DNA of 22,439 nt from Promethearchaeota archaeon (lineage in GTDB: Archaea; Asgardarchaeota; Lokiarchaeia; Sigynarchaeales; SOKP01): the NCBI GenBank assembly GCA_014730295.1, contig WJIN01000142.1, forward strand, positions 1-22,439, written 5' to 3'. The notes beneath the pieces are model-generated. The model saw only the letters and a list, made by a program, of their open reading frames with translations. It ran no database searches and was not told the DNA's origin. The position numbers and the translations under genes were made by a program. Shown here piece after piece: positions 2,127 through 13,868 of the stretch; position 1 is the first letter of the stretch, and each line of letters opens with the position of its first letter.

Positions 2127-3161
2127 TTACGAATACTTTCCACACCTACTATTCCATCGAGCAAAGATTCGTTCATCCTTTTCTCTTCCATTTACTCTAT
2201 TTTTATCTTCTTTCCTGACAAGGTATTTAATTGTACATCTATTAGCACAATCAGGACAGACAAAGGAACCTGGAGCCAAATTAATTTTACTAATTTTTAG
2301 ACCATGAAAAGAAGATAATTCTCCATTTACATGTTCCTTTGCTAAAATAGCTGAGCCGAATGCTCCCATCACGTAATGGTTTTCATGAATAATGACTTCA
2401 TGGCCCAATTCTTCTTCAAAAGCATTTTTTATTCCAGAATTCGCTGCTACTCCTCCTTGGAAGACAAATGGCGGATATAGTTTTTTACCCTTGCAGACAT
2501 TATTCAAGTAATTTCTCACAAGAGCTTTACACAATCCCTTAATAATTGCTTCTTTAGAATACCCTTCTTGTTGTTTACTAATCATATCTGATTCGGCAAA
2601 CACCGTGCATCGTCCAGCGATTGACACTTCCTCTTCTGCCCGAGAAGCATAATCCCCAAACTCTTCAATGGGAACATTGATCCGAACTGCTTGGTGATCT
2701 AGAAAAGAACCAGTTCCGGCAGCACAAACACTATTCATATTAAAATCTGTGACGATACCATTTTTCATCAATATAACTTTGCTGTCCTGTCCTCCGATTT
2801 CAAGAATTGTTCTTACGTCAGGGGTATAAGCTGATGCTCCAATTGCATGAGCGATTATTTCGGGTTTTGCTATATCTGCACCGATAAGAGCTTTTATTAA
2901 ATATCTAGCAGATCCTGTTGTCCCTACACCACAAATACGTTTTTCAATATTATCAGGAAGGACTTTTTCCATAAATTTTAGATTATCTTGGGTAGAAACA
3001 ATGGGAGAACCCTTATTTCTGGTCCAAGTAGCGAACAATAATTCATTTCTCTCATTTATGATGGCGCATTTTGTAGAGACGCTGCCAACGTCAATTCCTA
3101 AATATAATTTGTCATTCGTATCATCTGAAAGATGATTTATGATAAATTCTGGTTCATTCAA
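2127..3161 (-). CDS. BadF/BadG/BcrA/BcrD-type ATPase (2-hydroxyacyl-CoA dehydratase activator-like)
   Basis: A 344-residue ASKHA-fold ATPase. Phosphate-1 motif LGIDVGSVSTKC lies at 21-32, GVGTTGSARYL at 78-88 and the second phosphate motif EIGGQDSKVI at 121-130. The two cysteines that hold the [4Fe-4S] cluster between the two protomers are in NSVCAAGTG (C146) and GRCTVFAESD (C185). After the ATPase core (about 1-278) comes a tail with CPDCANRC (302-309) and RCGKY near the end (C340), as in the activase modules of long bacterial chains. The protein should use ATP to push an electron onto its low-potential partner. The start is TTG at 3161-3159: its TTGA overlaps the previous stop, and AGGAGG lies 11 nt upstream. 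Translational coupling with the upstream fusion gene is likely. Confidence 0.9.
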   Translation of the reverse strand: MNEPEFIINHLSDDTNDKLYLGIDVGSVSTKCAIINERNELLFATWTRNKGSPIVSTQDNLKFMEKVLPDNIEKRICGVGTTGSARYLIKALIGADIAKPEIIAHAIGASAYTPDVRTILEIGGQDSKVILMKNGIVTDFNMNSVCAAGTGSFLDHQAVRINVPIEEFGDYASRAEEEVSIAGRCTVFAESDMISKQQEGYSKEAIIKGLCKALVRNYLNNVCKGKKLYPPFVFQGGVAANSGIKNAFEEELGHEVIIHENHYVMGAFGSAILAKEHVNGELSSFHGLKISKINLAPGSFVCPDCANRCTIKYLVRKEDKNRVNGREKDERIFARWNSRCGKYS

Positions 3162-5593
3162 TTGTATTTTTTCCTCCTAATCATTTCGATAAAAGATTCT
3201 ACTCTGGTGGTTAGTTGAGATTCTCCAGTATGTTCGTCCAATGTGAGATCGATAAACGGCTTATCCTTCATATCAAAATCTTGCATCACCACTTCTTGAA
3301 TTAAAGAATCTGGGCCACACGCAAAAGAAATCAAGAAAATACCCCCATCAATCTCGTCATTATTGATCACATAATCTGATAATTGCATCAATTCATCTTC
3401 ATTATCCCAGAAATTGCACAGATTATCATCAATTTCAACCCTTCTTGAGAAGATTTCCTTTGGAGCATTTTCAACAGTTATAACGTCAACAAAATTAGAT
3501 TTGAGAATATCCATTAAACCATGATTAATAATTGGTTCATAGGTATTATATGGATGACCAAGAACCATTAATGAAAGTGGATGATTTTTGTATTCTTTAT
3601 GAAGTTTAGGTTGAAATCTTTTCTTAAAGTTATAATTTGGATATTTTTCAAAAGGATACATCTTGTAAAGTGCATCGGGAACAAAAATTCCATCCTCAAT
3701 CAACTCATGGAATTTTTCAAGCTTTTTATATCCATTCTCATAGGCAGGTTTTGATTCTTCTTTTGATTTCCCTAATTTTTTGCCGAAATTTATTGCTGAT
3801 TTCTTCATTGGATTTTCCCTGGCATTAAAGACCCATTCAATTACGGGAATCTTAGATACTGTTGAGTGTTCAGTGACATCTGGAAGAATAATAAATTTCG
3901 GACAAAAATAATGGTCATTACTATTACTGATAAATCTTGGAACAAAGATAAAATCGAGATCAGGGTGATTTCTTGATAAATAATTCACATGACCATAATG
4001 AATCTTCATTGGAATGCATAAATCGGTTGCTGATTGACTAGATCCTTTGGTAAGAATTTCTTTGTTTGTTTCTGGACTTACAATAACTTCGCACCCAAGA
4101 CTTGTAAGCATTCCTTCCCATAAAGGAAAAAACTTGTAGAAATAGAGGGACCGTGGAACACCTATCTTCAGTTTTTTCGTCTTTTTAGTCTTATTCTTAT
4201 AATTCGTCTTTTCGTACAAGTTTCGAAACAAGTTTTTGGGATCCGTTCGTTCTTTCACTTTATCGTATAGTTTCTTGTTATATACCTTCCAGAACAAATC
4301 TTCCTCGTAGTAATTGTGAGTTATCAGAGTTTTCATTCCTCTGAGCTCATAGACCTTTTCTTCTAATGCTTTATAGTAGTTGAATCCCTCTCTTTTTTGC
4401 TCGAACCCGTAAATGGCGAAATCTATGAATAATTCATTCTCAATGGGAGCGACCATTTCTTGATTGAGCCATGGATAAAACTTGTAGCCATCTAGTTTAT
4501 GTTTTTTCAAGCGGTATGGTACGATCCAAACGGGAAAGTAATCAAACACTTCAAGATACCAATTGAAAAATTCTTCCGCGTGGGTAACCGGTATGAAGAC
4601 ATCGACAATCACATCTGGTTTCCCCCCTTTCTTAGTTAAAAATGGCAATCGTTCGCTCATCTTAAGAATATTTGTCGATCCCAGTATAAAGGGACCTACT
4701 AGCCACCGGACTACCTTATTCTCAAAAATTCCTCCAGCAAAATTTCGGATCGACCAATGACAGTCAGCGTCATATCGGAAAAAATAATCTATGGTGGAGA
4801 GGTAATCTTGCTTTCTGTTCATGGCACTTTTATAATAAATATCGTAGAAATATTTATTCGTATAAGGAGCTTCCTCCTCATCAACGAAGCTGGCAACGCA
4901 GAGTAAGTTCTTATTCTCGGAGAATATAAGCCCGTCCATCATTTCAATATCTTGTTTTTCGTAGTGGTGTTTGATGGCGTCTATATATTCACTAAAAGTA
5001 TCATATTGGATGTAATCGATGCGGACGCATTTTTTTGCTGGAACGAGCTTGAATTTCAGAAGCGTGATGATTGCGATCGTGCCGAAACTTCCGTGCAGCA
5101 TCTCGAATATTTCAGGGTTATTACTTTTCGAGCAGACCATTATGTCGCCTGTTCCTGTCACAATCTCTATTTCTTCACAGGAATCGAAAAATCCCCCATA
5201 CTTAAATGACATGGATTCAACTGAACACCCTGCGACTGCCCCGCCTATCGTGATTCCCTTAAGCTCGGACACGCATTGAGGAACAAGGCCATACTCTAAG
5301 GTTTCTCTTGCAAGCTCAGCAAAAGTGACTCCTGCTTCAGCAATACACATCTGTGTATCTGGGTTTATCTCAATAATATCTGTAAGTGATCTCACATCTA
5401 TCGGCTTGTCACTATATTTCGGGTTATCCGGTTGTGGAGCCATGTGAGAAACGCTCGCCTTTTTTAGAGAGAAATATTCCCCGGGCTTCGCGTTATTATA
5501 GGCAGTTCTAACCATTTCAGAGATGGTTTCTATTTTTCTGTTATGTATTGCTAATTTTTCTTCACTCATATTAAAGATTTTGTATCCTTCCAA
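3158..5593 (-). CDS. Fusion of DHCR24-like FAD-binding oxidoreductase and DUF2229 (COG3580) activase-associated module
   Basis: 811 residues in two parts. Residues ~25-465 are a VAO/GlcD-type FAD domain: ITIGGAVAGCSVESMSFKYG (114-133) and EIEIVTGTGDI (141-151) match the flavin-binding core, with the SxESxSxKYG pattern typical of DHCR24/DWF1-like reductases. The end of this part (FWKVYNKKLYDKVKERTDP, 434-452) also resembles that family. Residues ~474-811 are DUF2229/COG3580, from KIGVPRSLYFYKFFPLW (476-492) through DLCIPMKIHYGH (C526), YFCPKF (C564), SFACGPDS (C759) to TLDEHTGESQLTTRVESF. It is the first gene of the operon and overlaps the ATPase by 4 nt. The TTG at 5593 is the longest start; an ATG at 5569 loses only 8 residues and is equally plausible. 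Both domains are clear, but substrate and direction of electron flow are unknown. Confidence 0.85.
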   Translation of the reverse strand: MEGYKIFNMSEEKLAIHNRKIETISEMVRTAYNNAKPGEYFSLKKASVSHMAPQPDNPKYSDKPIDVRSLTDIIEINPDTQMCIAEAGVTFAELARETLEYGLVPQCVSELKGITIGGAVAGCSVESMSFKYGGFFDSCEEIEIVTGTGDIMVCSKSNNPEIFEMLHGSFGTIAIITLLKFKLVPAKKCVRIDYIQYDTFSEYIDAIKHHYEKQDIEMMDGLIFSENKNLLCVASFVDEEEAPYTNKYFYDIYYKSAMNRKQDYLSTIDYFFRYDADCHWSIRNFAGGIFENKVVRWLVGPFILGSTNILKMSERLPFLTKKGGKPDVIVDVFIPVTHAEEFFNWYLEVFDYFPVWIVPYRLKKHKLDGYKFYPWLNQEMVAPIENELFIDFAIYGFEQKREGFNYYKALEEKVYELRGMKTLITHNYYEEDLFWKVYNKKLYDKVKERTDPKNLFRNLYEKTNYKNKTKKTKKLKIGVPRSLYFYKFFPLWEGMLTSLGCEVIVSPETNKEILTKGSSQSATDLCIPMKIHYGHVNYLSRNHPDLDFIFVPRFISNSNDHYFCPKFIILPDVTEHSTVSKIPVIEWVFNARENPMKKSAINFGKKLGKSKEESKPAYENGYKKLEKFHELIEDGIFVPDALYKMYPFEKYPNYNFKKRFQPKLHKEYKNHPLSLMVLGHPYNTYEPIINHGLMDILKSNFVDVITVENAPKEIFSRRVEIDDNLCNFWDNEDELMQLSDYVINNDEIDGGIFLISFACGPDSLIQEVVMQDFDMKDKPFIDLTLDEHTGESQLTTRVESFIEMIRRKKYN

Positions 5594-8769: not shown

Positions 8770-8961
8770 TTGATTGAGGAACCCACCAATTTTTTGAGAA
8801 ATTTGAAATTTCAAATCAGAAGAAAAGAGGAGTTTTTAGATAAGAGTCTTATCTCATTTCGAGCACAAATCAGAAACTGCATTGAAAGTTTCGAAGAGGT
8901 CTATTACCGGGAAGCCTATAAAGAACTGATAAACGAGTTGCGAAACCGTTCCAAGAAATAA
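8770..8961 (+). CDS. Small charged helical protein, unknown
   Basis: 63 residues starting at TTG 8770. The sequence is rich in Glu, Lys and Arg with few breakers, and predicts one or two long helices (FLRNLKFQIRRKEEFLDKS, then FRAQIRNCIESFEEVYYREA). I recognise no family. A TATA-like AAATATAAAG lies about 25 nt before the TTG, fitting a leaderless message, and no conserved gene is on the opposite strand. The neighbours are the Rag-like GTPase (divergent) and yjbQ (convergent). Existence is probable but unproven; the unusual start lowers confidence. Confidence 0.5.
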   Translation: MIEEPTNFLRNLKFQIRRKEEFLDKSLISFRAQIRNCIESFEEVYYREAYKELINELRNRSKK

Positions 8962-9056: not shown

Positions 9057-9479
9057 TTATTCTCCGATAATGGTACAGTAGATTTTCCGATTTCGTGGTT
9101 TTTCGTCAAATTCCAGATAGATTATCTGTTGCCATGTTCCATGGACCACTTTTCCATTCTGAACTGGGAATGTCTCAGAAGAGCCGATGAGAAACGATCG
9201 CAGATGCCCTGCTCCATTATGGTCTCCCCACGTATTATGATGGGCATAGTCCCTGTCATAGGGGATAATTTTTTCGAGAAACTCTTCAATATCGGTTTTT
9301 ACCAATCCAGGTTCATATTCTGTGGTTGAAATTCCCCCCGTTGACCCTGCAACATGGACATTAACCAATCCATTAGAAATATTACTTTCACTAACCGCAT
9401 TTTGAACTTTATCGGTGATATTAATGATATCGCAATATGGTTCGGTGCTTAGAGAAAATGTCTTAATTTCGACAGCCAT
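9057..9479 (-). CDS. yjbQ: YjbQ/UPF0047 family protein (thiamine-phosphate-synthase-like)
   Basis: 140 residues, the usual family length. The family signature is intact: GSTGGISTTEYEPGLVKTDI (45-64), then PYDRDYAHHNTWGDHNGAGH (73-92) and a C-terminal GTWQQIIYLEF block (114-124). Members form trimers with conserved His residues; some have weak thiamine-phosphate synthase activity, but the physiological role is not settled. An in-frame GTG at 9488 is possible. I prefer ATG 9479 because GGATG lies 8 nt before it and conserved sequence begins soon after. It is divergent from the sulfotransferase gene. Confidence 0.88.
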   Translation of the reverse strand: MAVEIKTFSLSTEPYCDIINITDKVQNAVSESNISNGLVNVHVAGSTGGISTTEYEPGLVKTDIEEFLEKIIPYDRDYAHHNTWGDHNGAGHLRSFLIGSSETFPVQNGKVVHGTWQQIIYLEFDEKPRNRKIYCTIIGE

Positions 9480-9567
9480 AGTATTCACATCCGTTTTCTT
9501 TAAATAGTAATTTCATTTATTACTCTTAGATAATTTAAAAATCGTATTAAATTTAAGTTAAAACCCA

Positions 9568-10455
9568 GTGAGCTCTCTAATGAAAGTTCAAAATTCTGAC
9601 GCGATTAAAGAAGAGAATGTAGCCCATCCTCAGAAGGTAGTATTTATTTGTGGTGCTCCGCATTCAGGATCCACCTTATTAGGATTGATTTTAGGAAGTC
9701 ATACTCGATGTTTTTACGCAGGAGAGGCGAATAAAGTAAAATTTTTGAGGAAAAATAATGAACATCCGGACAAATATTGTAAAATATGTGGACCAAGCTG
9801 TGAGATATGGGGAGATTTTGTATACAATAAGGATTTGAATATCTACCCAATTCTTTCTAAAAAAACGGGAAAAGAGATTGTGATAGACTCTACCAAAAAG
9901 CTTGAATGGGTGAAAATTCAGCTCGATAAATTAACAAATACTCCATCAGAGAAGTATCTGATTTATCTTTTAAGGGACGGGAGGGCGGTGATCAATTCTC
10001 GTCTCAGAAAGTATAAAGAAACGCACCCAGAAGAAATTATCGAGGAGTGGATCCGCCATATGGAAAAGACAAACTATTTTTATCAAGGATTTAATGGACC
10101 GAAAATTCAACTCCATTATGAGGAACTTGCCACGGAGCCAGTTAAAGCGATAAGGTCCTTATGTCAATTTCTCGGTATAATCTATGAGGATGCAATGCTA
10201 CGCTACTATAATCATCAGCATCATCCATTAGGGGGAAATACCGGTACGCAATCTCTTATTATAAAAGCACAAGAAGAGAATATAGAAAACCAATATATTC
10301 AATTGAGTGAACGAAATAAATATTATTATTCAGATCATCCGCTTTCAATTAAGCTAGACCTCCGTTGGGTAAAGGAGCTCGATTCGGATGTGATCGAATT
10401 GTTCGAACGAAAAGCAGGTGAAATAAATCTTCCTATGAAATGGAAGGAAAAATAA
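9568..10455 (+). CDS. Sulfotransferase-family protein (PAPS-dependent type)
   Basis: 295 residues. The 5'-phosphosulfate loop is GAPHSGSTLLGLILGSH (29-45) and the 3'-phosphate-binding segment is LLRDGRAVINSRL (134-146). These are the two hallmarks of sulfotransferases using 3'-phosphoadenylyl sulfate. VIDSTKK (105-111) and HHPLGGN (218-224) are also typical of the Sulfotransfer_3 group. A CKICGPSC segment (71-78) could bind a metal or form disulfides. No signal peptide or membrane segment is seen, so it should act in the cytoplasm; the acceptor is unknown. The GTG at 9568 gives the longest form; an ATG at 9580 preceded by GTGAG is an alternative. It is tail-to-tail with a second sulfotransferase-fold gene. 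Confidence 0.87.
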   Translation: MSSLMKVQNSDAIKEENVAHPQKVVFICGAPHSGSTLLGLILGSHTRCFYAGEANKVKFLRKNNEHPDKYCKICGPSCEIWGDFVYNKDLNIYPILSKKTGKEIVIDSTKKLEWVKIQLDKLTNTPSEKYLIYLLRDGRAVINSRLRKYKETHPEEIIEEWIRHMEKTNYFYQGFNGPKIQLHYEELATEPVKAIRSLCQFLGIIYEDAMLRYYNHQHHPLGGNTGTQSLIIKAQEENIENQYIQLSERNKYYYSDHPLSIKLDLRWVKELDSDVIELFERKAGEINLPMKWKEK

Positions 10456-10522: not shown

Positions 10523-11899
10523 TTAAATTATTTCAAATAATTGCTCATTAGTTTTAACATCGGGGAAACGTGTATTTATCACGGGGTAATTTAGAAAATT
10601 GCAGAGCTTTTTCCACGCACCTTCTTCAAAAATGTTTAGAACCAATAGTTTTCCCGGTTTATCCTTAAAGTAATCCAAGACATTTTTTATATGAAGATCA
10701 AAAACATAGGACATTCTGTCTCGATTGAATTTGTAGGTTCCATACACGCTGGCCCGCAGAAGCCGTCTAACTTTCATATAAGTCTCTGTCTGAGTGGAAT
10801 CTTCAAATGGATCTCGATCACTCCAATGTCGCTCAAAAGAGGTTAACCATGCTTCTTTGTCTCTCATCGTGAGAATAAATTTACTATTAGGAAAGAGTTT
10901 ATCCAACTGAGCGTAGTAAGGTGAGACTGTAATATCAGAAATACCGTCATAATCTTTCAGAACGGAGAAATTAAAGTCTCCGCTCGATAATTCATCAAAT
11001 GTCTCTCTATCGCTTGGATAATGTATAATATTATATCCTAAAATATACAGGGCGACTGTGAGGCTTTTCGTTCCCGTTCTACTTAATCCAATACAAAAGA
11101 TCTTTTCGTCATTTTCTATAGAACCCAAGGTATTATAAGCAACTCGTAAGTCTAATACTTCTTGAAGTTCTAATTTGAATTTTTCTTTAATCTTTAGTGC
11201 GCTTAGTTGGTCTTTAGCGATTTGGTGAAGGTTTTCAATAAAGAAGGATATTTCGTTGGAGGGAGCATTAGAAGGAATAGAATTCCGGGTGTATTTGACC
11301 GCTTGTCTGGCAATCACATAATCTAAATCCTCGTTGTGCCAATTAGCCATGCAATGCTCTAATTTTAGTCTCCTATGCTCTGATCGGCTTCTCAATTCTC
11401 TGAGCGCATATTTCACATAAATATCTTCATAATATTGAAAAAAATCGTGGAAGATACGAAATCGTTTAAATACCTTTTTTTCTCCCAGTTTCTCTAGAGC
11501 TATGTTCCTTAATCGGGATTCGGGACGTAAAATATACTTGAGATCTTCTTGTGGAATTTTTATTTGTTTCATTTCCTCAACGACATCTCTTCTTGTTATA
11601 TGAGTTCCCGTGTGAATAATTCCTCGAAATTTATCCATCACAAAGCAATCGATATATGCTTCTTCATTTTTATCCAGAAATTCTCTCATATTTTCCATAA
11701 TTAGGCAATCTGCATCCATAAAAACGATGAAATCCCCTTCATATTCAATATTGAGGATATGTTCCATTGCTTTGGCAAAGGGCTTTATATTTTCAATTAT
11801 ATGGACCTTATCTGGCTTAATATTTTTAAGCGCAAATTCGAGTGCTATATCCGATGTGCGTTCTCCAATGGTTCTAAAAACCAATTCTACTTTTTTCAT
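10523..11899 (-). CDS. Glycosyltransferase-like/sulfotransferase-fold fusion protein
   Basis: 458 residues with two parts. Residues ~1-200 resemble a GT-A nucleotide-sugar domain: beta strands around VELVFRTIGER, then GDFIVFMDADCLIM (55-68) with the DxD metal/nucleotide-binding motif. Residues ~265-450 are a sulfotransferase fold: IFCIGLSRTGTKSLTVAL (267-284) is the phosphate loop, and FILTMRDKEAWLTSF (341-355) is the second phosphate-binding segment, as in the Sulfotransfer_4 group. The linker is helical. There are no membrane segments. The ATG at 11899 is supported by the conserved first strand. It is plausible that one chain adds a sugar and a sulfate to the same acceptor, but neither substrate is visible. 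Identity of the second domain is clearer than the first. Confidence 0.77.
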   Translation of the reverse strand: MKKVELVFRTIGERTSDIALEFALKNIKPDKVHIIENIKPFAKAMEHILNIEYEGDFIVFMDADCLIMENMREFLDKNEEAYIDCFVMDKFRGIIHTGTHITRRDVVEEMKQIKIPQEDLKYILRPESRLRNIALEKLGEKKVFKRFRIFHDFFQYYEDIYVKYALRELRSRSEHRRLKLEHCMANWHNEDLDYVIARQAVKYTRNSIPSNAPSNEISFFIENLHQIAKDQLSALKIKEKFKLELQEVLDLRVAYNTLGSIENDEKIFCIGLSRTGTKSLTVALYILGYNIIHYPSDRETFDELSSGDFNFSVLKDYDGISDITVSPYYAQLDKLFPNSKFILTMRDKEAWLTSFERHWSDRDPFEDSTQTETYMKVRRLLRASVYGTYKFNRDRMSYVFDLHIKNVLDYFKDKPGKLLVLNIFEEGAWKKLCNFLNYPVINTRFPDVKTNEQLFEII

Positions 11900-12269: not shown

Positions 12270-13325
12270 CTATTTATACCTCAAACATTCTCTATATTTA
12301 TTGATCTGTTCTATAATGCTCAAGGGTAAGCTTTCTTCACTTGCATGTTTCAGAATAAGAATTTTAGAAAGTAACAATAGTTCTTTTTGACCCAAATCTA
12401 TAATATTACTCCACCCCTCAGTACGAGCTTCGATACATATGAAATTTTCTGTACGTCTCCTTTTCATGCATTTTGTATCTTTACAGTTCTCACACATTTT
12501 TGGAGTATAATATACGTTTCCATTCCTTAGAAATATTGAAAATGTTCCATAATTAGGATTGTAAATATTTATCCAATCTTCTTGCATTTGTTCATATTCG
12601 ATATTGAGATTCTGAAGATAGTGTTTTAATGCTTTTGTGTTTATTCGGCAACGTTCATGGGAAATACCTTGAGTAGGTTCATAATAATCATCACAATCGT
12701 AATTTAAATTTTTTTTTTCTGAAAGTTTATCTATGGAAATAAAATCGACCACGAAATTATCATCGTAACAATTCGACTCGACTTTTTTAAGAAAAAAGTC
12801 GCTAATTTGTGCAAAAATTTCGCGTGCATGCGTAATAGTATTGATTCTAAATTGTTCAGTTCTGATTAGATCAGTAAAGTTGGCGGAGTTAAAATAAGCT
12901 TCTTGTACTTCTTCCGCTGTCTTATCGTTCAAGACAACACAAAATATAATCGTGACAATAGGAATACGTGTTTTGATTTCGTGAAAATATCGAATTATTT
13001 GTTCGACTTTATTTTCAGAGATAAGCACAACACAAGCTTCTGCTCCTGTATAGAAGGTAGTTCTGAGAAACGCTTTTTCGCGTGAGCAATTGATATTCCA
13101 TAAGAAATATTCAAAATTATGATTTTGGGAAAATAGATCGACCTTTGAGATGTTGACTCCGATGTTTCTCTTGTTTTCCATGGAAAGTGTACTAGAACTG
13201 AGATAATCTTGGAACTGGTTCTTAATATCTTCTAAACCCCCAAGTAGGCAGACCTTTTTTTTAAAGTATGCTTCTTTTAAGTCAGTTTTGAGAGTATTCA
13301 TCGATATTATCTGCCTCTTATCCAT
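12270..13325 (-). CDS. Degenerate Ras/Rab-like G-domain protein (pseudo-GTPase) with C-terminal Cys cluster
   Basis: 351 residues. Residues ~22-180 follow the layout of a Ras-superfamily G domain, but each motif is broken. KVCLLGGLEDIKNQF (24-38) occupies the P-loop, with only Lys35 left from GxGGxGKTS. NIGVNISKVDLF (54-65) matches the TIGVD strand. FLWNINCSREKAF (74-86) stands where WDxAGQERF should be. FYTGAEACVVLI (91-102) matches the YYRGAxGxIxV strand, and VVLNDK (130-135) replaces the NKxD motif. The C-terminal ~130 residues hold YTPKMCENCKDTKCMKRRR (273-291) with CxxCxxxxC, a possible metal site, and a conserved-looking WSNIIDLGQKELLLLSK stretch. The ATG at 13325 is used; an inner ATG (codon 9) is possible. 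Loss of GTP binding is inferred from sequence; the G-domain ancestry is a pattern judgment. Confidence 0.6.
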   Translation of the reverse strand: MDKRQIISMNTLKTDLKEAYFKKKVCLLGGLEDIKNQFQDYLSSSTLSMENKRNIGVNISKVDLFSQNHNFEYFLWNINCSREKAFLRTTFYTGAEACVVLISENKVEQIIRYFHEIKTRIPIVTIIFCVVLNDKTAEEVQEAYFNSANFTDLIRTEQFRINTITHAREIFAQISDFFLKKVESNCYDDNFVVDFISIDKLSEKKNLNYDCDDYYEPTQGISHERCRINTKALKHYLQNLNIEYEQMQEDWINIYNPNYGTFSIFLRNGNVYYTPKMCENCKDTKCMKRRRTENFICIEARTEGWSNIIDLGQKELLLLSKILILKHASEESLPLSIIEQINKYRECLRYK

Positions 13326-13439: not shown

Positions 13440-13868
13440 ATGAGTGAGAAATACGAAGAACTCTTAGATAAAATCCACGATAAAAAAGGGAAGATCCCGA
13501 TATACATTACTATTACCATCCGTTCGGGAAAGAAAAAGGACTTAATCGATATTAAGATTAGAAAAGACAAATCTAATATTCTAAAAATCATGGCTCATGA
13601 AGCTGAGCAGAAAGGGTGGTATTTACATTCATATCATATACCATTGAAAAATTTAGGTTTACCAGAGGATGCAAAAAACAAAGAGATCCTCCCCTATTTG
13701 AATGAACCCTATAGAATAATGGCCGATAAATATACCAAAGATTTGGTTGAAGAAATACTTCAAAAATATATCGAAATTCACGCTGAGCGAAAAAAACATT
13801 TTTTCCGAACTGAACGATTTAAAGTGAAGAAAGATTTCAGTATTGGAGCGAAAAAAAAGGGTTTCTAA
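13440..13868 (+). CDS. Unknown basic protein
   Basis: 142 residues, strongly basic, with many Lys and Arg and a tail ending in IGAKKKGF. The N-terminal half predicts helix then two strands (IPIYITITIRSGKKKD, 19-34), and the middle predicts helices with YHIPLKNLGLPEDAKN. I do not recognise the family. The basic charge suggests nucleic-acid or ribosome contact, but nothing specific shows this. A clear TATA box, TTATAAAAA at 13417-13425, sits 23 nt before the ATG, so the message should be leaderless. Coding quality is good, with no conserved frame opposite. Convergent with trmI. Confidence 0.75.
   Translation: MSEKYEELLDKIHDKKGKIPIYITITIRSGKKKDLIDIKIRKDKSNILKIMAHEAEQKGWYLHSYHIPLKNLGLPEDAKNKEILPYLNEPYRIMADKYTKDLVEEILQKYIEIHAERKKHFFRTERFKVKKDFSIGAKKKGF

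Follow-up and report, generated by a model that had tools for sequence, protein, structure and literature searches.

Analysis of a 22,439-nucleotide stretch of a Promethearchaeota archaeon genome (contig WJIN01000142.1, positions 1 to 22,439; hereafter the window) indicated that an open reading frame (ORF) at 12270-13325 on the minus strand probably encodes a pseudo-GTPase, in which a Ras/Rab-type G domain, predicted to have lost guanine nucleotide binding, is fused to a C-terminal cysteine domain (CTD) and which likely serves as a constitutive adaptor or scaffold. As judged from its sequences, this is a strictly conserved pseudo-GTPase family found across many Asgard archaea. Asgard archaea are the closest archaea to eukaryotes, and their many small GTPases have been interpreted as forerunners of membrane trafficking in eukaryotes. 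The evidence comprises the fold (by profile and model), the family-wide replacement of motifs, purifying selection, the co-conservation of the two domains, and gene linkage. The ORF is intact, with 351 codons and zero stops, and the motifs quoted in the original prediction, which was made from the sequence alone, were all present in it. The start at Met9 of the ORF is shared by homologues P0003–P0007, and P0002, a 99% identical homologue, is 343 amino acids (aa) long; the gene is therefore likely to span 12270-13301.

Matches to the single sequence were weak (Pfam Roc, E value 8.5e-4; Rab23, E value 0.006), but the family profile matched Rab11 (E value, 4.9e-7) and Rab23 (E value, 7.9e-7), making the link to the Ras superfamily firm. 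Pfam Roc was matched by 71/71 family members at E values of up to 0.1, the best being 2.2e-8. The profile and the predicted model thus both gave the GTPase fold that defines a pseudo-GTPase, and the G domain is assigned on these grounds to the Ras-superfamily fold, as had been predicted. Helix alpha1 of the model starts at E32, three residues ahead of the P-loop lysine, and extends into the P-loop. In a structure search (VIA) with the G domain, five of the six top rows were Rabs in complexes with guanine nucleotide exchange factors (GEFs) or regulators, and one of them was titled nucleotide-free. Membership of the Roc-COR proteins was not indicated: P0001 scored 20 bits against Roc, where the Pfam cut-off is 27, with no COR match, and COR was absent from the 25 Pfam families listed for the 71 members. 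P0001 also gave no Gtr1_RagA match in Pfam at E values of up to 10, and an NCBIfam scan of the 71 members yielded no family matching more than 3 of them.

The nucleotide-binding motifs are replaced throughout the family. Residues G29, E32, K35, K52, G56, V57, N58, W76, N77, C80, and R88 were invariant in 71/71 aligned sequences. On an alignment to Ras, in Ras numbering, the first glycine and the lysine of the P-loop are retained, whereas Glu invariably occupies position 13, one of Y, I, F, or L position 15, and D or N position 17; in switch II, D57 is replaced by Asn and G60 by Cys. The GxxxxGK[ST] pattern of active Ras and Rab proteins occurred in 0/71 sequences at the aligned positions, WNxxC stood at the DxxG site in 71/71, and no NKxD was conserved at G4. 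Ten of the 16 invariant G-domain residues fell within the 21 of 169 positions that make up the G1–G3 windows (p 4.8e-7), and none fell in the G4/G5 windows. Because of this clustering, the old nucleotide site looks re-specialized rather than decayed. From the sequence and the model, the protein is predicted not to bind GTP.

A divergent GTPase that still binds a nucleotide, perhaps another one, through K35 and unusual contacts (a class ii or iii pseudo-GTPase) seems doubtful. The invariance of G29 and K35 would suit it, as would a 173-aa relative, L031, that is only partly degenerate. However, the equivalents of Ras G15, S/T17, D57, G60, and NKxD are lost family-wide, the modelled helix reaches into the P-loop, and in some relatives of the wider clan described below the lysine is missing as well.

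The gene is under purifying selection. The ratio of nonsynonymous to synonymous substitution rates (dN/dS) was 0.079 against L001, the closest relative with DNA sequence, and 0.08–0.34 across the 16 most similar pairs drawn from the window and 20 loci; the relaxed selection raised as an alternative in the original prediction was therefore not borne out. All seven Lokiarchaeia genomes examined, which were chosen for carrying the gene, contain one full-length copy each, free of internal stops. A decaying pseudogene or annotation artefact could be imagined from the loss of the catalytic motifs, but with substitutions common to 71/71 sequences, dN/dS well under 1, and intact full-length copies, it has next to no credibility.

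A protein search retrieved 70 homologues at E values of 3e-61 or lower, and an alignment search retrieved 163, of which 120 were listed. Among the matches listed, every row naming an organism belonged to an Asgard lineage, such rows being the minority. The full profile matched 31/227 genomes of the phylum at 1e-15, in some cases on one domain alone (in G092, the G domain only), and the CTD profile matched 74/227 at 1e-6. The distinct Asgard family that had been suggested as a possibility is supported, and by the CTD profile it extends far beyond this one protein. A CTD-bearing ORF was present in 128/129 retrieved loci; 98 such ORFs were distinct, and the 80 with at least 120 aa ahead of the CTD were counted as clan proteins. 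The sharing of the motif losses by homologues, put forward earlier as a check, extended to the clan, since GxxxxGK[ST] was found in 0/80 distinct clan proteins. The [NT]KxD pattern occurred in 10/80, all away from the G4 site on visual inspection backed by four printed positions. GxxExxK was found near the start in only 30/80, so the substitute P-loop is not clan-wide. The same seven Lokiarchaeia genomes contained 38 weaker G-domain matches outside the family; as a control, 12 of these paralogues were inspected, and 11 kept both the P-loop and NKxD, the degenerate L031 being the exception.

The Loki-type alignment and a distant one of 27 rows, among which L064 and L065 are close to the Loki type, were homologous over G domain and CTD alike, at an hhalign probability of 100 across 308 columns. 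At an E value of 0.01, 14 of the 27 distant members matched Pfam Roc and 12 matched Pfam Ras. In a 41-row tree, the 11 canonical GTPases made up one side of a branch with support of 97/92; this is compatible with a single origin of the clan, with several rows long-branched and the root arbitrary. Two clan relatives, P0157 and P0158, are labelled Helarchaeota. L031 itself (L031:524-1045, plus strand, genome G004) is a Ras-like protein without a CTD that carries a GTETADKT P-loop and WDIGAQ and no NKxD, and it possibly bridges the canonical Asgard GTPases and this clan. Genome G087 had six CTD matches, some of them in ORFs without a G domain (noted with loci L055, L061, and L188 of genomes G087 and G089). 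At their C-terminal end, several clan proteins have a helical hairpin that may resemble SHOCT domains.

The zinc ribbon guessed earlier for the C-terminal half was not supported; the model instead showed an alpha-beta4-alpha3 order, in which the Cys cluster follows the last strand and precedes the later helices. The CxxC-C-C cluster was conserved in 70/71 members, and on this pattern the CTD probably binds metal. Its fold had no confident match, and structure searches were weak. The modelled order of elements differs from that of a roadblock domain. The CTD does resemble E2/UEV (UBC-fold) domains in its alpha-beta4-alpha3 order and Cys-x7-Trp spacing, and the possibility was considered that it is a UBC (E2-like) domain in which Cys297 takes the place of the E2 catalytic cysteine, and that the protein acts in the Asgard ubiquitin system. 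The modelled topology favors this idea, and of the 50 rows of the weak VIA search with the CTD, 22 had titles naming an E2 or a complex with one; VPS37A, which carries a UEV-type domain, ranked second. C297-x7-W305 has the same spacing as Cys-x7-Trp of the Asgard E2s L137 and L138, and this cysteine and tryptophan are retained in standalone CTD proteins of 115–162 aa that have no CxxC cluster (L193, L195, L196, L205, L192, and L214). In two distant loci, L117 (Helarchaeota-type) and L118, the neighbouring gene is RING/zinc-ribbon-like, at scores under the Pfam cut-offs. Nevertheless, HPN is absent upstream of C297, although the spacing to W305 fits. When CTD and E2 profiles were compared by hhalign, in one pairing and then with three CTD alignments against three E2 profiles and 33 control clusters (one of them the pseudo-GTPase family itself), the probability was 0.1–0.4, and the E2 scores of 9.9–13.7 fell below those of the best unrelated controls (21–24). 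For this reason, the CTD was not assigned to the E2s, and an E2-like role is improbable. Equally improbable is an ancient Asgard clan in which a dead Ras-type domain is coupled to a UBC-like one that has retained a cysteine at the catalytic position of E2s; if true, the protein would act as a recruiter, independent of GTP, in an archaeal pathway of ubiquitin-like or thioester type, and the link between small GTPases and ubiquitin machinery would be older than eukaryotes.

In the pseudo-GTPase that we favor, the substituted P-loop (GxxExxK[ND]) and switch II (WNxxC) would stand in for the nucleotide and lock the G domain in one conformation, the switch face would dock a partner without a GTP cycle, and the CTD, perhaps metal-stabilized, would offer a second docking interface; in Lokiarchaeia, UPF0047 is the usual gene partner. 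The last element comes from the gene neighbourhood, where one recurrent link (UPF0047) stands among otherwise lineage-specific neighbours. The Lokiarchaeia region is broadly syntenic, with EPSP synthase, S9, L13, L18e, RNA polymerase Rpb3/D-like, SHMT, DUF7121, a GCD14-type methyltransferase, a 142-aa gene (conserved in 20/22 records, in a comparison that includes the window), the pseudo-GTPase, UPF0047, a RagA-like GTPase, and a class I W/Y tRNA synthetase. In 16/20 full Lokiarchaeia loci, no more than 20 bp separate the stop of the pseudo-GTPase gene from the start of UPF0047, and several of these pairs overlap. UPF0047 is YjbQ-type, and YjbQ is listed as being of unknown function in PMC7954711. 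The coordinates are collected in Table 1.

Table 1. Features of the window around the probable pseudo-GTPase gene; residue numbers refer to the 351-codon ORF at 12270-13325.
Feature	Position	Strand	Basis or remark
Pseudo-GTPase gene, preferred start Met9, 343 aa	12270..13301	-	Homologue starts; AGAGG upstream
Ras/Rab-like G domain (predicted), residues 18-186	12768..13274	-	Profile and model
Altered P-loop (G1), residues 29-36, GGLEDIKN	13218..13241	-	Loki-type family GxxExxK[ND]; modelled helix alpha1 from E32
Altered switch I (G2), residues 52-58, KRNIGVN	13152..13172	-	K52, G56, V57, N58 in 71/71
Altered switch II (G3), residues 76-81, WNINCS	13083..13100	-	W76, N77, C80 invariant
Lost NKxD position (G4), residues 128-135, FCVVLNDK	12921..12944	-	G4/G5 windows without invariant residue
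CTD, residues 228-351, alpha-beta4-alpha3 (modelled)	12273..12644	-	Model and profile
Cys cluster C278-x2-C281-x4-C286-x10-C297	12435..12494	-	Alignment
Invariant W305, eight positions past C297	12411..12413	-	Alignment of 71
UPF0047 (YjbQ-type) gene, conserved neighbour	9057..9488	-	In the window, two sulfotransferase genes intervene
Inserted sulfotransferase-domain gene, first of two	9568..10455	+	Between pseudo-GTPase and UPF0047
Inserted sulfotransferase-domain gene, second of two	10523..11899	-	Between pseudo-GTPase and UPF0047
Gtr1/RagA-like GTPase, canonical P-loop	7587..8516	-	Downstream in 20/20 full Lokiarchaeia loci
Divergent conserved 142-aa gene	13440..13868	+	No Pfam match

Several observations weigh against the pseudo-GTPase account. 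The lead of GEF-bound structures in the VIA rows was small, with Ran-GTP rows close behind. Neither G29 nor K35, which occupies the place of the P-loop lysine, varies in the Loki-type family, so these proteins may still bind some ligand. As for the gene link, UPF0047 lies farther off in L002 and L007 (130 and 201 bp), an insertion splits the pair in the window, L001, and L004, and UPF0047 was a neighbour in only two of the 20 wide distant loci, overlapping the pseudo-GTPase gene in G103 and lying 48 bp away in G091, where seven other neighbour profiles had no match on the 14-kb contig. One alternative is a repurposed ligand sensor, in which the old nucleotide site would bind another small molecule or a metal and report to the neighbouring UPF0047 enzyme. 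The proposed ligand residues E32, K35, N58, N77, C80, and R88 are invariant in 71/71 sequences, UPF0047 is linked, and in one distant group, five of the seven wide loci have an adjoining SLOG-type gene (by Pfam LDcluster4 for one and by BLAST for the others). Such a sensor is nonetheless unlikely, if less so than the other alternatives, because GxxExxK is confined to a minority of clan proteins, whole distant groups without K35 and E32 still keep the architecture, and the UPF0047 link is rare in the distant loci.

Among known systems, the protein most likely works like the class i pseudo-GTPases, by analogy with PMC5593906, which includes p190RhoGAP pG1/pG2, CENP-M, and fungal dynein light intermediate chain in this class. 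As in these proteins, a Ras-type fold is combined with several degraded G motifs, and a scaffold or regulatory role is suggested, in line with the original prediction. Unlike these eukaryotic proteins, the family is archaeal, has fixed GxxExxK[ND] and WNxxC motifs in the Loki type, and carries a fused Cys domain. Asgard Rab-like and fused GTPases are G-domain relatives that share stretches resembling FYxGA and, in switch I, GV[NQD]ISK, but 11 of the 12 inspected keep GxxxxGKT and NKxD. The long ones carry their extra domain, a roadblock or longin part, at the N-terminal side, unlike the C-terminal one here. Rab-like proteins of archaea that carry Rab motifs, and the structure of a Thor-Rab with bound GDP, have been described (PMC4915359; PMC10933270), and the excerpts of these two papers do not mention the pseudo-GTPase family. 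Searches of open-licence PMC full texts found no paper joining Asgard archaea with pseudo-GTPases or with a degenerate G1 motif; arCOG and asCOG catalogues lie outside that literature, and the family may thus be an unnamed cluster in them. The family, its substitute motif, and the CTD appear undescribed in the literature searched, while the kind is already known from eukaryotes.

If the pseudo-GTPase reading is true, non-switching GTPase scaffolds, known from eukaryotes, exist in Asgard archaea as well, and non-GTPases can enter tallies of Asgard small GTPases that rely on fold or Pfam matches. With its conserved substitute motif and its single copy in each examined Lokiarchaeia genome, the family would make the role of a GTP-free GTPase fold testable in a small protein.

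The Gtr1/RagA-like neighbour resembles the pseudo-GTPase in having a G domain and a C-terminal domain of similar length and in its chromosomal position; the pseudo-GTPase differs in having no Gtr1_RagA match and a modelled CTD order unlike that of roadblock domains. A dead partner in a Rag heterodimer was considered from the nearness of the two genes in 20/20 full Lokiarchaeia loci and was rejected: synteny extends over the entire region, UPF0047 and the RagA-like gene are separated by a small ORF of opposite strand in the three loci inspected, and the modelled CTD lacks the roadblock order. This unannotated ORF of 63–79 aa lies at 8770-8961 (+) in the window, L003:11507-11746 (-), and L008:11510-11740 (-), opposite in strand in 3/3 loci, and the L003 and L008 copies look alike. 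Rfam and tRNA scans of the whole window found nothing. The sulfotransferase-domain gene at 10523-11899 (-) showed a weak glycosyltransferase-2 match at its N-terminus. An 811-aa ORF at 3158-5593 (-) matched FAD_binding_4, DUF2229, and, below the cut-off, the 2-hydroxyglutaryl-CoA dehydratase D-component, and it adjoins a BcrAD/BadFG ATPase-family ORF (2127-3161).
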